DNA from: Saprospiraceae bacterium
GTDB taxonomy: Bacteria; Bacteroidota; Bacteroidia; Chitinophagales; Saprospiraceae
Direction: 5' to 3'
NCBI GenBank assembly: GCA_021604865.1
Contig: BQJU01000012.1
Location: forward strand, 1-64,000
Length of the DNA stretch: 64,000 bases
The number at the start of each line of letters is the position of its first letter. The stretch's first letter is position 1. Shown here one piece after another: positions 5,274 through 13,162 of this stretch. The position numbers were made by a program, and so were the translations under genes. The notes under the pieces are model-generated. The model made no database searches, was not told the origin of the DNA, and was given only the letters and a program-made list of their open reading frames with translations.

Positions 5274-8200
5274 ATGCGTAGAAATTTACTACCGAGCTAC
5301 GGCCGTGTTGATATAGACAGGCTGTTCCCCCCCCGACATTTATTATTGGTCTTATGTAGCTTTTTCCTGTTCACTCAATTTGCTTCTGCACAGTTTAGTG
5401 TTTCTTTTGATGTTACAGAACCTAGCTGTTTTGGATTGCCAACGGGGAGTGTGACGGCAAATACTTCGGGAGGAACAGCTCCATTTAGCTATGTTTGGAG
5501 TACAGGGAGCACGGGAGCTACCCTTAGTGGTGTGTTAGCTGGTTCCTATTCTGTTACAGTAACCGATGATACTGACTTTTCAGTTTCGGAAAGTGTGAAC
5601 ATCGACCAGCCAGATTTGGTGACGGTTACATTTGATCCTGATGTTTGCCAGCTTCCATTTTCGGTTACAGCCCAAGGCGGCGGCGGCATACCTCCTTACC
5701 ATTATAACTGGGAAGGCGGCGTGACAACGGCTACGCTTTCCAACCTGTCGCCCGGCACATACTGTCTGACCGTCACCGACCAGCACTACTGTGGGGTAGC
5801 AACGTGTGTGACGTTAGAAGGAACGCCATTAGAGATTTCCTTATCAGTCGATAATTTAACTTGTCCGGACTCCGATGATGGTAGCATCACTGCTACACCA
5901 ACTGGCGGCACTGCACCTTATACTTATATATGGAGTAATGGCGGCACCGATCAATCCATTAATAACCTGGAACCGGGTACTTATTCGGTTACGGTTACGG
6001 ATGATACAGGGTGTACCGTTAGTGGTTCCGGAACGGTAAGTAATGTACCACCAATAGTCATTACACCGAATTCCAGTTCACCAACCTGTCCTAATGACAA
6101 CAATGGAAGCGTTTCGGTAAGTGTATCCGGTGGCACTGGGCCATATACTTATCTTTGGAATACCGGCGCGACCGGAGCTGTTTTACCCAATTTAACGGCA
6201 GGCACCTATACGGTTACAGTTACGGATGCCAATGGATGCCCGGCAGAAGCAAGTATCCCGTTACAAAATGTATCCAACCTCATGATGGGTGCTGTGGGTA
6301 CTCCTGAAACCTGCCCTGATGAAAACGATGGTTACCTGACGGCGAATCCTTCCAACGGTGTACCTGTTTATACCTATATATGGAGCAATGGTGCGACCAC
6401 CCAGGTGGTTACCAATGTTGCTCCTGGTACTTATTCCGTAACGGTAACCGATGCAGTAGGTTGTACAAGAACCGCAACAGCAGTGGTACAAAGTGCACCG
6501 GATTTTGAAGTTATGGTTACTGGTACCAATGTAACGACTTGTGGAGGTAGTAATGGAACCGCTACAGCAACTGTGACGGATGGAACACCACCCTACACTT
6601 ACTTGTGGGATAACGGAGAAAGCACCCAAACCATCTCGGGTTTGAGTGGAGGAGAATATAATGTCACGGTAACCAATAGCGACGGATGTATTGCCACCGG
6701 TTTTATTGTCATCACCGTACCCCCTGAGGTATCTGTACAAATAACAGCGACGGATCTGGTTTGCGCTGGGGAAAGTGATGGCGTTGCAGCAGCAGTGGTT
6801 TCTGGTGGTACAGCTCCTTTTGGCTTTGTCTGGAGTACCGGAGAGACTACAGCAAGTATTGCTGATCTGGCTGCCGGTACCTACTCGGTAACAGTGATGG
6901 ATGTAAATGGCTGTATGGATGAAGCATCAGCTACAATTAATGAAGCACCGGGATTATCTGTGAGTGTAGTAGGTACAGATGTTGTTTGTGGTGAAGGTGG
7001 TACCGGATCAGCCACTGCTCTGGTAGACGGCGGAACTGCTCCCTTTGCCTATCTGTGGACCAATGGTGCGACTACAGCCACTGTTAATGGCTTAGCAACC
7101 GGAACCTATGGGGTAACGGTTACTGATGCCAACGATTGTACGGCAACTGGAGAATTTTCCGTTTTGGTGGTTGAAGACCTGGATATCGAGGTCATTTCAC
7201 AAGATCTATTTTGTTTTGAAGACAATACCGGGCGCGCAACTGCAACTGCAAGTGGCGGAACAAGCCCTTATACTTACGAATGGAGTGATGGTACTACGGA
7301 TGTAACAATTAATGGTGTTGCAGCGGGTACTTATTCCGTTACGGCAACAGATGCCAATGGATGTACGGTTTCACAGACCATTCAAATTGATCAGCCTGCT
7401 CTTTTGGAGGTCGAGATCACCACTGATGCACCCATGATTTGCCCTGAATCACTTGATGGTTCGGCAACGGCCAACCCAAGTGGCGGTACTACTCCTTATA
7501 CTTATTTATGGAGCAATGGCGCTACGACACAATCCATTAATGACGTTGCGGCAGGGACTTATACGGTTACGGTTACAGACAGTAATGATTGTGAGGCTTC
7601 AGCTACCATTACCATTACAGAAGCTCCGGAACTGATCGCTGAGACTACGGGTAGTGAGATTGTTTGTGGTAGCGAAAATGAAGGTAATGCCGAGGTTACT
7701 GTAACCGGTGGAACGCCTCCTTTCACCTTTATGTGGAGCAATGGCTCTGAGCAAGAATCTATTGAAAATCTGGGAGAAGGCACTTATACCGTTACAGTTA
7801 CCGATGCGTTGGGTTGTACCGCTACTGCTGAGTTTACGGTTGATGTAATTGATGATTTTCTTTTGTCAATAGTACCACGGGATGTGCTTTGTTTCGGCGA
7901 CAATACCGGAAGCATCCTGGTCAATTCTTCTGGCGGCACAGCACCTTATACTTATCTATGGAGCAATGGCGCTACGACTAATGAAATCGTCAACTTGGAA
8001 ACGGGCACTTATAATGTAACGGTAACTGAAGCCAATGGATGTCAGCTCGTTCAATCGATCAGTATCGATGAGCCAACAGAATTGACAGTAACGGCTATCG
8101 GAACCGATGCAGCCTGTTTTGATGAAACATCGGGTTCCGCTACAGCTACTGCTAATGGCGGCGCCACTCCTTATACTTATGCATGGAGTGACGGACAAAC

Positions 8201-11123
8201 AACAGCAACAGCCAATAACCTGAGTGCCGGTACCTATATGGTTACCCTTACGGATGCTAATTTCTGTACGGATGTTGCCACAATTGTAATTGAAGAGCCA
8301 GCAGAGCTTAGCCTAACGGTTAGTTCACCTATCATTAATTGTGGAGGTACTGCCAGTGGAGAAGCTACTGCGATTGTTATTGGTGGCAACGAACCCTATA
8401 CTTACCTATGGAGCAATGGTGCTACTACTCAGACAATAACGGGCATTACGGCAGGCATTTACGGGTTGACCGTTACTGATGCCGCTGGTTGTGATGTAAG
8501 CTCACAAACCATTAGTATCCAGGAATTGCCGGAGTTGACCGTCACTTTTGAGGTAACAAATATTGTTTGTTCTGATGAAAATATCGGAGCCATATCAACC
8601 ACCATTTCCGGTGGCACATCACCATACACCTACGCCTGGAGTAATGGAGCAACTACAGCAAACCTTTCCAATCTTTCAGCCGGTACTTATGATTTGACGG
8701 TTACTGATGCCAACCAATGTTCAACTACCGGTACCGCGACGGTTACACAAATGCCGAATTTAGAGATTACCCTAACCTCAACGGATATAACCTGTAATGG
8801 TGCCGACGATGGTACTGCCACGGTTATGGCTAGTGGAGGGGAAATGCCTTACACCTATGATTGGAGCACAGGAGGAGATACCCCTACGATCACTGGATTG
8901 GCACCAGGTACTTACACGGTAACAGTTACAGGGAATGCTGGCTGTTCAGCTGAAGGCAGTGTAACGATTATAGAACCAACGGCACTAATGCTCAATACCA
9001 GCTCACTGGATGTTGATTGTACTGGAAATGCTGATGGGCAAGTGACCGTAACAGCAAGCGGCGGCACTTCGCCATATACCTACCTTTGGGATAATGGAGC
9101 GACTACCGCTACAATTGGTGGATTGATTGCCGGCACGTATTCCGTTACGGTTACAGATGTTAATGGTTGTACCGCTACGGCGTCAGAAACCGTAAATGAA
9201 CCTACAGCACTGGGGATTGACATCTCCGGATTGACCAGCACTTGTACCGGAAGTAATGATGGTGCAGCAACTGCCACGGGTAATGGTGGTACCCCTCCTT
9301 ATACTTATTCCTGGAGTAATGGTGCCAATACAGCGAGCATCTCCAATGTTCCTGCGGGTATTTATACCGTTACCGTTACGGATGCCAATCAATGTTCAAC
9401 TACAGCAACGGCCAATGTGCCTAACTTCAACCAGCCAACATGTTCAGTAGAGATCGTTCAGCCGGTACATATATGTGTAGACGGAGAATTGGAGGTGGTG
9501 GTTAGTGGTGGCACAGGACCCTATACCTATTTATGGAGTAACGGAGCAACGACGGCTTCAATTTCCGACCTTGGTGTTGGGGATTATAGCGTAGTTGTAA
9601 CGGATGCAAATGGCTGTACAACGACCTGCCAGCAAACCTTGGGCTCATTGAGCCTGGTCGGTGATTATGTGTGGCTTGATGAGGATCAGGATGGTATTCA
9701 GGATGCTTCAGAAATGGGCATTGGTGGTGTAACCGTGATTATTACCAATGTTGATGAAGATGATCCGGTTTGTGCTGATACAACGGTAACCGATAGTAAT
9801 GGTAATTATTACTTTGAAGTACCCCCGGGCACCTACAAAATTACTTTTGTACAACCGATTGGATTGGAACCAAGTCCTCAAAATGCAGGAGGCAATGATG
9901 CTGTAGATAGTGATGCAGACCCAATCATGGGGATGACCGAAATCTTTACGATTGGCCCAAATGAAACCGATCTGACATTTGATGCCGGATTCTACTCACT
10001 TTGTGTAAATCTAACGGACCCAGGTATCATTGGGTATAACCAATACCTGTGTGGCCCTGGTGGTGATCCGGATCCAATTCAGAATATTGCTTTCCCAAGT
10101 GGCGGATCTGGTCCAATAGAATATATTTGGATGTACAGTGTCTCTTCTGGACCATTTAACCAGACGACCTATCAGGCTATTCCTAATTCCAATAGCCCAA
10201 CTTATGATCCGGGGCCACTTTTCCAAACGACTTACTTCGTCCGTTGTGCACGTCGCGAAGGTTGTAGCACCTACATTGAGCCTGCTCCAGTAGAAATTGT
10301 AGTAGGTATGGAAGTGGTGCCTGTCATTACAGGACCGAGTGGTGCTTGTCGTTACGATGATGTGACTTTCACGGCTAATGGCATTGGACCTGATGCTGTC
10401 ATTACCTGGCATTTTGGTTCAGGAGCTATTCCAAATACGGCAGTTGGTTCACCAGTTACCGTGAGTTTTACTTCTACCGGAAATCGGAATATTCTACTGG
10501 AAGTCACTGAAGATGATTGTACGGCATTTGATCGGGCAACGATCCACATCACCAATAGTCCAGTTGAATGTGGAACCGGACTGGTTATTGATGCAGAGGT
10601 GGAAGATCAGGCTGCCAAGCGGATTCGCGTCAATTGGAGCTTGGAAGAAAACAATGGCAATATCGTCTACCAGGTAGAACGTTCCAGCGATGGCGAAAAC
10701 TTCCAGCAGGTAGGCGCAATAACAGAACCAACAAGCGTACAAAACGGAATTCAATATTTCGAATACTTTGATATTGCAGCAAAAAAAGGGCGTAGTTATT
10801 ATCGTGTGAAAGCGGTAGAAAATAATGGCAATTCCCTGCTCTCTGATGTGGTTGATGCCGTAATCTACGGTGATTCTGAGTTGTCAATGGTTTACCCTAA
10901 TCCGGCAAACGATATGATAACCATAGAATTCTTTGATACATTTGGCGAGGAAGTGACCCTTGAGGTAATCTCTGTCAGCGGTAAGCGATTGACTACCCTT
11001 CACCTACCGGCAGATGTTGAACGTCAGCAGATTGATTTATCTGCTTTCCCCACCGGCGCCTACTTCATCCGTATGAAGTATGGTAAATCGGATGTTAAAA
11101 CAGTAAGAGTACTAAAGTACTAA
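5274..11123 (+). CDS. Giant SprB-repeat surface protein with type IX secretion signal
   Basis: 1949 residues. An N-terminal signal peptide (about residues 1-40, ending FASA|Q) is followed by 19 tandem SprB-type repeats of roughly 75 residues. Each repeat carries GGT-PY-Y-WSNGATT and GTYSVTVTDANGC signatures with a conserved Cys pair. Around residue 1462 an SdrD-B-like domain begins (GDYVWLDEDQDGIQD), followed by Ig-like and fibronectin-like segments. A C-terminal type A sorting domain starts near residue 1871 (YPNPANDMITIEF...GAYFIRMKYG). SprB proteins are cell-surface adhesins moved by the gliding machinery in flavobacteria; here adhesion is the safest reading. It is transcribed alone, with a terminator at 11162-11192. 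The repeats are diverged at DNA level, so slippage should be limited. Confidence 0.9.
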   Translation: MRRNLLPSYGRVDIDRLFPPRHLLLVLCSFFLFTQFASAQFSVSFDVTEPSCFGLPTGSVTANTSGGTAPFSYVWSTGSTGATLSGVLAGSYSVTVTDDTDFSVSESVNIDQPDLVTVTFDPDVCQLPFSVTAQGGGGIPPYHYNWEGGVTTATLSNLSPGTYCLTVTDQHYCGVATCVTLEGTPLEISLSVDNLTCPDSDDGSITATPTGGTAPYTYIWSNGGTDQSINNLEPGTYSVTVTDDTGCTVSGSGTVSNVPPIVITPNSSSPTCPNDNNGSVSVSVSGGTGPYTYLWNTGATGAVLPNLTAGTYTVTVTDANGCPAEASIPLQNVSNLMMGAVGTPETCPDENDGYLTANPSNGVPVYTYIWSNGATTQVVTNVAPGTYSVTVTDAVGCTRTATAVVQSAPDFEVMVTGTNVTTCGGSNGTATATVTDGTPPYTYLWDNGESTQTISGLSGGEYNVTVTNSDGCIATGFIVITVPPEVSVQITATDLVCAGESDGVAAAVVSGGTAPFGFVWSTGETTASIADLAAGTYSVTVMDVNGCMDEASATINEAPGLSVSVVGTDVVCGEGGTGSATALVDGGTAPFAYLWTNGATTATVNGLATGTYGVTVTDANDCTATGEFSVLVVEDLDIEVISQDLFCFEDNTGRATATASGGTSPYTYEWSDGTTDVTINGVAAGTYSVTATDANGCTVSQTIQIDQPALLEVEITTDAPMICPESLDGSATANPSGGTTPYTYLWSNGATTQSINDVAAGTYTVTVTDSNDCEASATITITEAPELIAETTGSEIVCGSENEGNAEVTVTGGTPPFTFMWSNGSEQESIENLGEGTYTVTVTDALGCTATAEFTVDVIDDFLLSIVPRDVLCFGDNTGSILVNSSGGTAPYTYLWSNGATTNEIVNLETGTYNVTVTEANGCQLVQSISIDEPTELTVTAIGTDAACFDETSGSATATANGGATPYTYAWSDGQTTATANNLSAGTYMVTLTDANFCTDVATIVIEEPAELSLTVSSPIINCGGTASGEATAIVIGGNEPYTYLWSNGATTQTITGITAGIYGLTVTDAAGCDVSSQTISIQELPELTVTFEVTNIVCSDENIGAISTTISGGTSPYTYAWSNGATTANLSNLSAGTYDLTVTDANQCSTTGTATVTQMPNLEITLTSTDITCNGADDGTATVMASGGEMPYTYDWSTGGDTPTITGLAPGTYTVTVTGNAGCSAEGSVTIIEPTALMLNTSSLDVDCTGNADGQVTVTASGGTSPYTYLWDNGATTATIGGLIAGTYSVTVTDVNGCTATASETVNEPTALGIDISGLTSTCTGSNDGAATATGNGGTPPYTYSWSNGANTASISNVPAGIYTVTVTDANQCSTTATANVPNFNQPTCSVEIVQPVHICVDGELEVVVSGGTGPYTYLWSNGATTASISDLGVGDYSVVVTDANGCTTTCQQTLGSLSLVGDYVWLDEDQDGIQDASEMGIGGVTVIITNVDEDDPVCADTTVTDSNGNYYFEVPPGTYKITFVQPIGLEPSPQNAGGNDAVDSDADPIMGMTEIFTIGPNETDLTFDAGFYSLCVNLTDPGIIGYNQYLCGPGGDPDPIQNIAFPSGGSGPIEYIWMYSVSSGPFNQTTYQAIPNSNSPTYDPGPLFQTTYFVRCARREGCSTYIEPAPVEIVVGMEVVPVITGPSGACRYDDVTFTANGIGPDAVITWHFGSGAIPNTAVGSPVTVSFTSTGNRNILLEVTEDDCTAFDRATIHITNSPVECGTGLVIDAEVEDQAAKRIRVNWSLEENNGNIVYQVERSSDGENFQQVGAITEPTSVQNGIQYFEYFDIAAKKGRSYYRVKAVENNGNSLLSDVVDAVIYGDSELSMVYPNPANDMITIEFFDTFGEEVTLEVISVSGKRLTTLHLPADVERQQIDLSAFPTGAYFIRMKYGKSDVKTVRVLKY

Positions 11124-11192: not shown

Positions 11193-11214
11193 GAGTAGGT
11201 ATGAAAAGGAGGGG

Positions 11215-11460
11215 GCAGATCGCTGCGCTTTCAGGGGTCAGACGCTGCGCTGTCAGGGGTCAGGACGCTTCGCTTTCAGGGGTCAGGACGCTGCGCTGTC
11301 AGGGGTCAGGACGCTTCGCTGTCAGGGGGCAGGCCGCTGTGCTTTCAGGGGTCAGACGCTGCGCTTTCAGGGGGCAGGACGCTTCGCTTTCAGGGGGCAG
11401 ATCGCTGTGCTGTCAGAAGTCAGAGGCTGCACTGTCTTTAGTCTGACAGCGAAGCGATCT
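11215..11460. repeat. Minisatellite block 1, about ten 22-23-bp units
   Basis: Tandem units of the form (agg)acgct[g/t]cgct[g/t]tcagggg[t/g]c follow one another with only a few variable bases. The last unit runs into an inverted copy (gtctgacagcgaagcgatct), giving the block a hairpin end. Because units are 22 or 23 bp, reading frames drift through the array. Long ORFs across it encode only low-complexity GRFAFRGQ-type repeats and are not credible genes. Confidence 0.85.
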
Positions 11461-11552
11461 CAAAAACGCCATCGCTTTGGACCACAGTGTGGTCAAAGTA
11501 TGTTAGCTCGTAATAGTGCCACGGTTTTCGACTACAGCGTAGTCGCACCTAT
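11461..11552. other. Spacer with palindromes between minisatellite blocks
   Basis: This 92-bp spacer contains two related near-palindromes, gaccacagtgtggtc and cgactacagcgtagtcg, each inside a similar context. It separates the two repeat blocks and codes for nothing recognisable. Confidence 0.5.
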
Positions 11553-11718
11553 CACTTTCAGGGGTCAGACGCTGCGCTGTCAGGGGTCAGGACGCTTCGC
11601 TTTCAGGAGTCAGACGCTTCGCTGTCAGGGGGCAGACGCTGCGCTTTCAGGGGTCAGGACGCTTCGCTGTCAGGGGTCAGATCGCTTCGCTGTCTTTAGT
11701 CTCACAGCAAAGCGCTCT
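11553..11718. repeat. Minisatellite block 2, about seven 22-23-bp units
   Basis: Same units and orientation as block 1, again closed by a degenerate inverted unit (gtctcacagcaaagcgctct). The shared architecture (units, tctttagtct junction, inverted end) shows that the blocks are copies of one larger structure. Confidence 0.85.
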
Positions 11719-11788: not shown

Positions 11789-11819
11789 TTGCAAAAGTGG
11801 AAATTACGCTTTAAACTTG
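11789..11819 (+). promoter_or_regulatory. Candidate promoter of the cysteine-rich leader
   Basis: TTG at 11789-11791, a 20-nt spacer and TAAACTTG at 11812-11819 match the Bacteroidota promoter pattern with one mismatch. Transcription would start just before the leader ATG at 11841, leaving a short 5' leader as expected for an attenuator. Confidence 0.45.
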
Positions 11820-11840
11820 CAGTCGAATTAACCAATTATT

Positions 11841-11930
11841 ATGAAGGCTCTGCCGATAGAATCAATTTGTTGCTGTTGCTGTTTTATCACGCTGCTAGTC
11901 AGTGCCGGGAACCGTACATTGGTTGGTTAA
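11841..11930 (+). CDS. 29-codon leader peptide with five consecutive Cys codons
   Basis: The small frame reads MKALPIESI, then CCCCC (residues 10-14), then FITLLVSAGNRTLVG, and stops at 11928-11930. It is too short for normal gene finding. Its position, between a candidate promoter and a strong terminator hairpin 24 bp downstream, is that of an attenuator leader peptide. A 7-nt stretch in its 3' part (ccgggaa, 11905-11911) is complementary to the 5' arm of that terminator. Ribosome stalling at the Cys run when cysteinyl-tRNA is scarce could therefore allow an antiterminator. The function is inferred; the ORF, codon run, hairpin and complementarity are directly visible. Confidence 0.6.
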   Translation: MKALPIESICCCCCFITLLVSAGNRTLVG

Positions 11931-11953
11931 AAAGGTAATACCTGATTCCATTC

Positions 11954-11993
11954 AAAGGCCTTCCCGGATGTCATTCCGGGAAGGCCTTTGTGT
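11954..11993 (+). terminator. Strong attenuator/terminator hairpin
   Basis: A perfect 15-bp stem, aaaggccttcccgga (11954-11968) with tccgggaaggccttt (11975-11989), and a 6-nt loop. It is followed by a T-rich but interrupted tail (gtgtttt). It lies after the Cys leader ORF and 165 bp before the reductase gene. Confidence 0.75.
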
Positions 11994-12154
11994 TTTGGTT
12001 ATTTGATTAAACTAATTAAAGTCATTAGTTGTATAGATAAAGGTCATGGAGTTGAAGATGTTAAATAGCCTAACATTGTTTATCTTTGTGGTGAATTTTT
12101 AACCTTCTTTGGGAAATCCCGGATTTTGTCAAAGAATTATTTTATTTGAGTGTT

Positions 12155-13162
12155 ATGATAAAGACGGATATACTGATCATTGGAGCGGGCCCTGTGGGGT
12201 TGTTTACAGTGTTTGAAGCGGGACTATTGAAGTTGCATTGTCATCTGGTGGATGCATTGCCTATGGCTGGTGGTCAGTTGTCGGAGATTTATCCGAAAAA
12301 ACCGATTTATGATATTCCCGGTTATCCTTCCATATTGGCCGGCGAACTGGTAGATCGTTTAAAGGAACAAATTGCTCCATTTAAGCCTGGTTATACGCTA
12401 GGCGAACGGGCGGAAAGTATCGAAAAGGTTGGCGAAAAAATGTACCGGATGACCACCAATCGGGGGAGTCAGGTTGAAGCACCGGTTATTGCGATTGCCG
12501 GTGGTTTGGGATGTTTTGAGCCAAGAAAACCACCTATCCCCAATGTGGAACATTTTGAGGACCACGGGGTGGAGTATATTATCAAAGATCCGGAATTTTA
12601 CCGCAACAAACGCGTTATTCTGGCTGGTGGTGGTGATAGTGCGCTGGATTGGACAATCTTCCTATCTGATGTAGCCAGTGAAGTAACACTCATTCACCGC
12701 CGTAATGATTTCAGAGGCGCCCCTGATTCTGTTGAAAAAGTGATGGAATTGGCACAGGCTGGAAAAATCGATCTGCTCACTCAATCTCAGGCAGTGGGGC
12801 TGATTGGCAATGGCAAATTGACTGATGTAACCATCAAACACAAAACCAGAGGCGAGATTTCCAAATCTACAGACCATTTCATTCCCTTATTTGGCCTTTC
12901 TCCAAAACTAGGGCCCATTGCTGATTGGGGACTGGATATTGATAAAAATGCCATCGAAGTAAATACCCTTGATTACAGTACCAATGTACCGGGTATTTAT
13001 GCTATAGGAGACATCAATACTTATCCCGGCAAACTGAAGCTGATCCTGTGTGGTTTCCATGAAGCTACATTGATGTGCCAGTCGGCATTTCAATACATCA
13101 ATCCGGATAAAAAATTGAGTTTTAAATATACTACCGTTAATGGAGTTAATGGGTTTGAATAG
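12155..13162 (+). CDS. Ferredoxin-NADP reductase-like FAD/NAD(P) oxidoreductase (thioredoxin-reductase fold)
   Basis: 335 residues from the ATG at 12155; a TTG three codons upstream is less likely. The FAD-binding GAGPVG lies at residues 10-15 and a second dinucleotide-binding motif GGGDSALDW in the middle. The C-terminal YAIGD motif is also present. It lacks the CxxC redox pair of true thioredoxin reductases, which fits the YumC-type ferredoxin/flavodoxin-NADP reductases. Such enzymes pass electrons from NADPH to ferredoxin, for example for sulfite reduction. The upstream Cys-codon leader would fit a sulfur-assimilation role, but a possible separate TATCTTTG promoter element at 12081-12088 could drive the gene independently. 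A DinB-like gene follows after 60 bp. Confidence 0.85.
   Translation: MIKTDILIIGAGPVGLFTVFEAGLLKLHCHLVDALPMAGGQLSEIYPKKPIYDIPGYPSILAGELVDRLKEQIAPFKPGYTLGERAESIEKVGEKMYRMTTNRGSQVEAPVIAIAGGLGCFEPRKPPIPNVEHFEDHGVEYIIKDPEFYRNKRVILAGGGDSALDWTIFLSDVASEVTLIHRRNDFRGAPDSVEKVMELAQAGKIDLLTQSQAVGLIGNGKLTDVTIKHKTRGEISKSTDHFIPLFGLSPKLGPIADWGLDIDKNAIEVNTLDYSTNVPGIYAIGDINTYPGKLKLILCGFHEATLMCQSAFQYINPDKKLSFKYTTVNGVNGFE

Follow-up and report, generated by a model that had tools for sequence, protein, structure and literature searches.

What is the function of a short open reading frame (ORF) with five successive cysteine codons, when it stands between a promoter-like site and a perfect inverted repeat and the next gene encodes a ferredoxin-NADP reductase (FNR)? 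This arrangement occurs in the 64,000-nucleotide stretch of Saprospiraceae DNA analysed here (the window), and the initial annotation had read it as a candidate cysteine-sensing attenuator, with coordinates that were borne out throughout the region. We consider it highly probable that the device is a ribosome-mediated transcription attenuator of the classical type, with a polycysteine leader peptide, controlling FNR. What was computed in favour of this reading comprises the sequence parts (Table 1), a recurring architecture, spacing, specific complementarity, a fit to ribosome geometry, gene association and synteny.

Table 1. Features of the proposed attenuator and its neighbourhood (positions in the window)
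Feature	Position	Strand	Remarks
Promoter match, Bacteroidota type	11789..11819	+	TTG-N20-TAAACTTG, score 7/8
Leader ORF, 29 codons, MKALPIESICCCCCFITLLVSAGNRTLVG	11841..11930	+	Architecture common to 32 sulfite reductase leader units
Five consecutive Cys control codons, TGT TGC TGT TGC TGT	11868..11882	+	
Antiterminator 5′ arm (proposed), CCGGGAA	11905..11911	+	Would pair with 11961-11967 in the stalled-ribosome fold
Intrinsic terminator hairpin (predicted)	11953..11990	+	16 perfect pairs, 6-nt loop, tail TGTTTTGGTT
FNR, thioredoxin-reductase-like type, presumed controlled gene	12155..13162	+	phmmer, Pfam Pyr_redox_2
Large repeat-rich protein, neighbour outside the device	5274..11123	+	C-terminal part probably marks the old sulfite reductase locus

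A generic scan found no sigma-70-type promoter on the + strand at the leader, so that form was dropped and the Bacteroidota form used instead, matches being scored against TAnnTTTG, which we take to be the consensus of the Bacteroidota promoter (-7 box). Thus the promoter-like site of the initial annotation is retained, in its Bacteroidota and not in a sigma-70 form, with its TAAACTTG box ending 21 nt 5′ of the leader ATG. The 29-codon ORF and its five consecutive Cys codons were found as annotated; the Cys codons occupy positions 10-14, and after the run there are 15 more sense codons before the stop. The predicted terminator, which lies between the leader ORF and the first gene, has arms at 11953-11968 and 11975-11990: the inverted repeat is perfect, as had been claimed, with a stem of 16 bp, not 15. 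Its 5′ arm includes the segment ttcccgg (the antiterminator 3′ arm), and the complementarity of this segment to ccgggaa within the ORF, on which the annotation had built its antiterminator, was confirmed. At -31.9 kcal/mol the hairpin has the lowest energy among the 33 units described below, and the leader RNA folds with a z of -4.98 against shuffles; the tail is U-rich, but its U-tract is interrupted. No known Rfam family was found in the window at the gathering score, the best permissive match at the locus reaching 25.3 bits where 95 are required, nor did any family reach threshold in 12 sulfite reductase (SiR) loci.

The trp, his and ilv leaders are the classical ribosome-mediated transcription attenuators, and by the same logic transcription here would start just past the promoter match, near 11826, and the leader would be translated. 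With sufficient Cys-tRNA the ribosome would reach the stop codon and mask part of the antiterminator; the terminator would form in the cell and FNR would not be transcribed. When Cys-tRNA is short, cysteine being the presumed signal, the ribosome would stall on the Cys codons, the two antiterminator arms would pair and block the terminator, and FNR would then be made, supplying reduced ferredoxin for sulfite reduction. Modelled folding of the window RNA gives exactly the pairing proposed by the initial annotation, in which a ribosome on the Cys codons frees the antiterminator segment: with the ribosome on the last Cys codon, before the 3′ arm of the terminator is made, 11905-11911 pairs with 11961-11967 (-20.5 kcal/mol), and with the ribosome at the stop codon the terminator alone forms. 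The computed antiterminator is exclusive with the terminator, free beside the stalled ribosome and masked by a ribosome at the stop codon. As the finished terminator is computed to be the more stable of the two, the antiterminator must win kinetically, which is how antiterminators win in known attenuators.

Could the Cys run be a chance product, a simple repeat of the (TTGCTG) type that happens to read as Cys beside an unrelated terminator? TGTTGCTGTTGCTGT is periodic and its other frames read Leu or Val-Ala, and one further locus (L203) does hold a long run of such a repeat. In the 7.97-Mb genome, four consecutive TGY codons occur 81 times; examination of all 81 matches gave seven ATG-started ORFs of at most 60 aa, four of which overlap long ORFs. 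The intergenic poly-Cys short ORFs of this genome (at least four Cys) are three, and all three precede sulfur genes: FNR, SiR-cobA-cysG-cysH and metY-metX. Furthermore, the Cys codons of the 33 leaders are a mixture of TGT (148) and TGC (66), and the spacing and complementarity statistics given below also speak against a fortuitous run, so that we find this explanation scarcely credible.

The SiR leader of the same genome (MNHFIISCCCCCRYHESNSGGIAFD, read from the second ATG) has the same design as the window leader and contains the identical 15-nt Cys run; it is followed by a hairpin (AAAAGGCCTTACCGGA-loop-TCCGGTAAGGCCTTTT) and then by a T run. When the window leader DNA was compared with its own genome in a similarity search, the SiR leader matched in the Cys run only (26 nt, E 1.12), and the two leaders are therefore not recent duplicates.

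An independent scan, for six TGY codons, covered 84 genomes, 65 of them with a match, and among the matches listed there were 12 intergenic short ATG-started ORFs; L183, L185, L190 and L216, with runs outside long ORFs and no ATG-started ORF, were left out of this count. SiR follows four of the 12, in three genomes. MetY, a CysK-like PALP enzyme, CysH and an OsmC protein follow one apiece, and peroxiredoxins follow two; of the remaining two ORFs, one precedes a protein without Pfam match and the other belongs to a simple repeat. The protein without Pfam match (E<=1e-5; L180:1634-2674) lies behind a Cys7 leader and hairpin and may be a member, of unknown kind, of a poly-Cys leader regulon. The simple repeat is that of L203, where a short ORF ends, near position 1516, in a (TTGCTG)n run that reads as 16 consecutive Cys codons; this run is probably a microsatellite.

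The conservation of the Cys run and its pairing in relatives, on which the initial annotation had rested the fate of its reading, proved to depend on the gene that follows. Directly upstream of FNR no poly-Cys leader was found in any of 29 orthologues (that of G015 included), by a scan for runs of at least three TGY codons in ORFs of at most 70 aa which took in 29 of the 37 close FNR genes besides the window's own copy (loci L002-L030, with 1500-nt flanks, some shortened by contig ends). Short Cys ORFs at L003, L008, L021 and L024 were rejected, being on the opposite strand to FNR or downstream of it. We attribute the absence of leaders directly before FNR in relatives to operon structure, with FNR lying downstream of SiR. 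Before SiR, the Cys run, hairpin, spacing and leader-terminator complementarity all recur.

SiR was found in 25 of 100 genomes, this genome included; one SiR locus (L143), for which upstream sequence is lacking, was excluded, and our counts are thus over 24 genomes, this one and 23 relatives. Units of a poly-Cys leader with a hairpin lie upstream of SiR in 20 of the 24 (19 relatives and this genome), and amount to 32 in total, with runs of 3 to 10 Cys and with two units in tandem in 12 relatives; the leader is absent in four genomes, one of which has only 324 nt of upstream sequence. Hairpins were sought by a folding search of the stretch that begins 5 nt ahead of the stop codon and ends 75 nt past it; this search replaced a simple terminator finder that missed bulged or long-loop hairpins. 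Four short ORFs far upstream and without a run of at least three Cys (L131 at -1009, L135 at -1043, L136 at -1003 and L142 at -786) were left out of the unit counts. The longest run seen in relatives has 11 consecutive Cys (L237).

Named SiR loci were taken as the best 80 of at least 592, and 78 of them had at least ~400 nt of upstream sequence. In 22 of these 78 a Cys-rich short ORF lies within ~610 nt of SiR, although the simple finder did not give all 22 a hairpin. The 22 belong to Saprospiraceae, Flexithrix, Fulvivirga, Marinoscillum, Cesiribacter, Pontibacter and others, and none was counted among the 78 in Chitinophaga, Pedobacter, Mucilaginibacter or Spirosoma; L310 (TTG start, CCLYYCC), flagged by the script, was left out of this count. 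A phylum-wide draw gave a leader at 2 of 28 SiR loci, both from the same family, the leader being rare outside the family. These two distributions indicate that the device is limited to some lineages. Judged by these sequences, the poly-Cys device is widespread in the family, often doubled, and not peculiar to the window locus.

The 32 SiR units, taken together with the window unit, formed a test set of 33 in which the geometry of the proposed mechanism could be compared. The last Cys codon lies 60.5 nt from the hairpin (sd 7.3), and the two parts that make up this distance, the peptide tail (sd 12.3) and the stop-to-hairpin segment (sd 9.2), compensate each other (Spearman -0.75); when tail and stop-to-hairpin lengths were shuffled among units the spacing had an sd of 15.1, and none of 20,000 shuffles gave one as small as that observed. 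Thus the Cys-to-hairpin spacing is conserved despite its variable parts, and it is the Cys codons, not the stop codon, that are in register with the hairpin.

Complementarity between the post-Cys segment and the terminator 5′ arm exceeded that in shuffles over the set (summed z -7.6; 14 of 33 units at p<=0.05), the window unit taken alone having a p of 0.11. In a swap test each unit's own arm was preferred over the arms of other units (0 of 20,000 permutations, z -5.2; z -5.0 without the window unit; P 0.004 with only the last unit per genome). The window unit ranked first of 33, with its own arm preferred over all 32 others, and four units fell in the worse half (L122, rank 30; the second unit of L138, 27; L124, 23; the first unit of L137, 20). 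With footprint sizes assumed, a ribosome on the last Cys codon leaves the antiterminator arm uncovered and a ribosome at the stop codon overlaps it in 28 of the 33 units, compared with 16.0 in shuffles, of which 0 of 200 were as high. All these P values are optimistic, because the units share a common ancestry and cannot be treated as independent.

Promoter matches scoring at least 7 precede 18 of the 33 leaders, where 3.7 were expected from mononucleotide shuffles, and among the 12 tandem pairs 11 have such a match before the first leader and none (0 of 12) before the second, so that tandem units seem to lie in series on one transcript. If this is true, two attenuators in series would give a steep switch, and with two sensors of the same amino acid in series a threshold response is directly testable.

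A polycysteine leader might also act by translational attenuation or Rho-dependent control, as in the actinobacterial kind, with the hairpin merely terminating a short RNA. This would be concordant with the cys operons of Mycobacterium, which are preceded by poly-Cys leader ORFs without obvious terminators according to the portion of the report available (PMC1262725), and with those leaders of our relatives that have a C-terminal Cys run and no hairpin (before ferredoxin, CysH, OsmC and a peroxiredoxin). The presence or absence of a hairpin follows the place of the run: among non-SiR leaders, a hairpin lies behind all three with 10-13 residues after the Cys run (peroxiredoxin, CysK-like enzyme and the unknown protein), and behind none of the nine whose run is at the stop codon or at most two residues from it (ferredoxin, CysH, OsmC, a peroxiredoxin and the simple repeat in L203). 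The window leader, with 15 residues after its run, is of the hairpin-bearing design. This, together with the hairpin that the window and all 32 SiR units have at a conserved distance and with specific complementarity to the post-Cys segment, argues for transcription attenuation through the terminator, and makes a translational or Rho-dependent device at this locus very improbable.

The gene that would be controlled was annotated as a ferredoxin-NADP reductase, and phmmer agrees, with PDB entry 5ygq as its best match (E 1.2e-113) and further matches to 2zbw, 6gas, 3lzw and others. That FNR serves sulfite reduction, as had also been suggested, is backed by gene order. Thirteen SiR relatives were searched for FNR and five had no close FNR; in the eight relatives with close genes for both, FNR lies downstream of SiR on the same strand in six, at a distance of ~2-3 kb, and on a different contig from SiR in G015 and G053. 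The order is SiR-cobA-cysG-cysH-FNR in five (G014, G036, G018, G034 and G019) and SiR-cobA-cysH-FNR in G077; nine operon regions for which gene order was determined were partly chosen for a nearby FNR, and the unbiased count is the six of eight. The device also singles out FNR as a likely source of electrons for sulfite reduction, together in some relatives with a ferredoxin. C-terminal poly-Cys ORFs without a hairpin lie directly 5′ of a 4Fe-4S ferredoxin gene at L243, L244, L248, L249 and L250, with SiR following ~2 kb downstream; these loci are from Cesiribacter, Fulvivirga and a Flammeovirgaceae MAG (the Pfam assignment of the ferredoxin was run for L243 and L249 only).

In this genome SiR-cobA-cysG-cysH is now on contig C5, behind its own leader of the same design (C5 ends 73 nt 5′ of the first ATG of that leader), and the window leader stands directly before FNR. 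The large protein encoded upstream of the device bears on how this came about. Its last 407 aa have one match in their own genome at E<=1e-20 (150 of 181 candidates scored), and the best match adjoins SiR, 0.6-0.9 kb upstream, in G036, G020 and G014; no match at E<=1e-20 was found in G018. Because the C-terminal match adjoins SiR in relatives, we suggest that the window probably holds the old site of the SiR operon, a remnant left behind when SiR-cobA-cysG-cysH departed from the ancestral operon. The interval from the large protein gene to the leader contains, at 11210-11703, ~500 bp of 22-23-nt repeats (ggggtcaggacgcttcgct-like) that have diverged and include inverted copies.

Such a history raises the question of whether the attenuator itself is a decayed remnant, which once headed the SiR operon and no longer controls FNR. 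The relocation of the operon genes shown by synteny would fit this, as would the weak U-tract, and a box that matches TAnnTTTG in full (TATCTTTG, 12081-12088) lies between the terminator and FNR, where it could be a promoter that bypasses the attenuator. However, this box has no TTG 17-23 nt before it and scores 6/8, and no damage is seen in the ORF, the Cys run, the perfect 16-bp stem, the promoter match or the antiterminator. The lowest hairpin energy and the first rank in the swap test also belong to the window unit, and decay therefore seems distinctly unlikely to us; a working attenuator before FNR remains our preferred reading.

Ribosome-mediated attenuation is a mechanism known in kind, and a model of it has been set out for the ilvB1 attenuator (PMC13236596). 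The device presented here is like the trp, his and ilv attenuators in having a leader ORF with a run of end-product codons, an antiterminator exclusive with an intrinsic terminator, and the same ribosome geometry. It differs from them in its control codons, which are five consecutive Cys (up to 11 in relatives), in the two complete tandem units before SiR in 12 of the 19 relatives with units, and in being known from sequence alone. Polycysteine leader ORFs of actinobacteria have reportedly been studied by Canestrari et al. in 2020. The actinobacterial leaders resemble the present device in that a short ORF containing Cys runs precedes sulfur genes; however, the candidates in the accessible part of an earlier account have the run near the stop codon, with no conserved terminator found (PMC1262725), whereas the window leader has a mid-peptide run and an intrinsic terminator and falls outside the actinobacterial definition as given there. 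Similarly, uORFC-8-2, found before cysS in Rhodobacterales, has Cys codons, a terminator-like 3′ end with a U run and a proposed stalling on Cys codons, but it is an alphaproteobacterial element before a Cys-tRNA synthetase gene and has two Cys codons, for the most part codons 14 and 15 (PMC8632094), and the window leader, with five Cys before FNR, lies outside its definition. The tandem SiR leaders resemble the tandem attenuators of Salmonella mgtCBR, where two short ORFs in one leader exert transcription control, and differ in lineage and genes, to the extent that the available text describes them (PMC3641672).

In the literature searched, which most subscription papers lay beyond, we found no cysteine attenuators in Bacteroidota, nor the combination of poly-Cys leader, intrinsic terminator, tandem units and Bacteroidota; leader peptides do figure in the transcriptome papers on Flavobacterium psychrophilum and Bacteroides thetaiotaomicron, with no cysteine case in the portions available. 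The same literature gave no description of cysteine sensing in this lineage, and a recurring, often doubled poly-Cys attenuator before SiR would supply one.

Considering all the leaders together, we lean towards the view that Saprospiraceae and some relatives possess a cysteine regulon operated through poly-Cys leader peptides of two designs. The mid-peptide design, with a terminator, would serve SiR and FNR, to which relatives add a CysK-like enzyme, a peroxiredoxin and a protein of unknown kind; the C-terminal design, without one, would serve ferredoxin, CysH, OsmC and a second peroxiredoxin and would include most MetY leaders, the MetY RNA reading both SAM and cysteine. The SAM riboswitch (RF00162) resembles the present device in controlling sulfur amino acid genes and differs in sensing SAM, not Cys-tRNA. 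In this genome (contig C22) one such riboswitch (L119:7013-7137) is followed by a short ORF ending in Cys5-His (7147-7239), before metY-metX. Of 27 MetY loci found, 20 were scanned, the genome's own included, and 11 of these (this genome and ten relatives) have a SAM riboswitch; ten of the 11 also have a short ORF that ends, or nearly ends, in Cys codons. If the regulon reading is true, a MetY RNA with a SAM riboswitch and then a C-terminal Cys leader would read SAM as well as cysteine. At four loci upstream of MetY (L157, L159, L165 and L166), at which no SAM riboswitch was found, there are short ORFs that mix Cys and Met codons (e.g. MCMCCCCMCMM), and these are possibly leaders sensing both amino acids.
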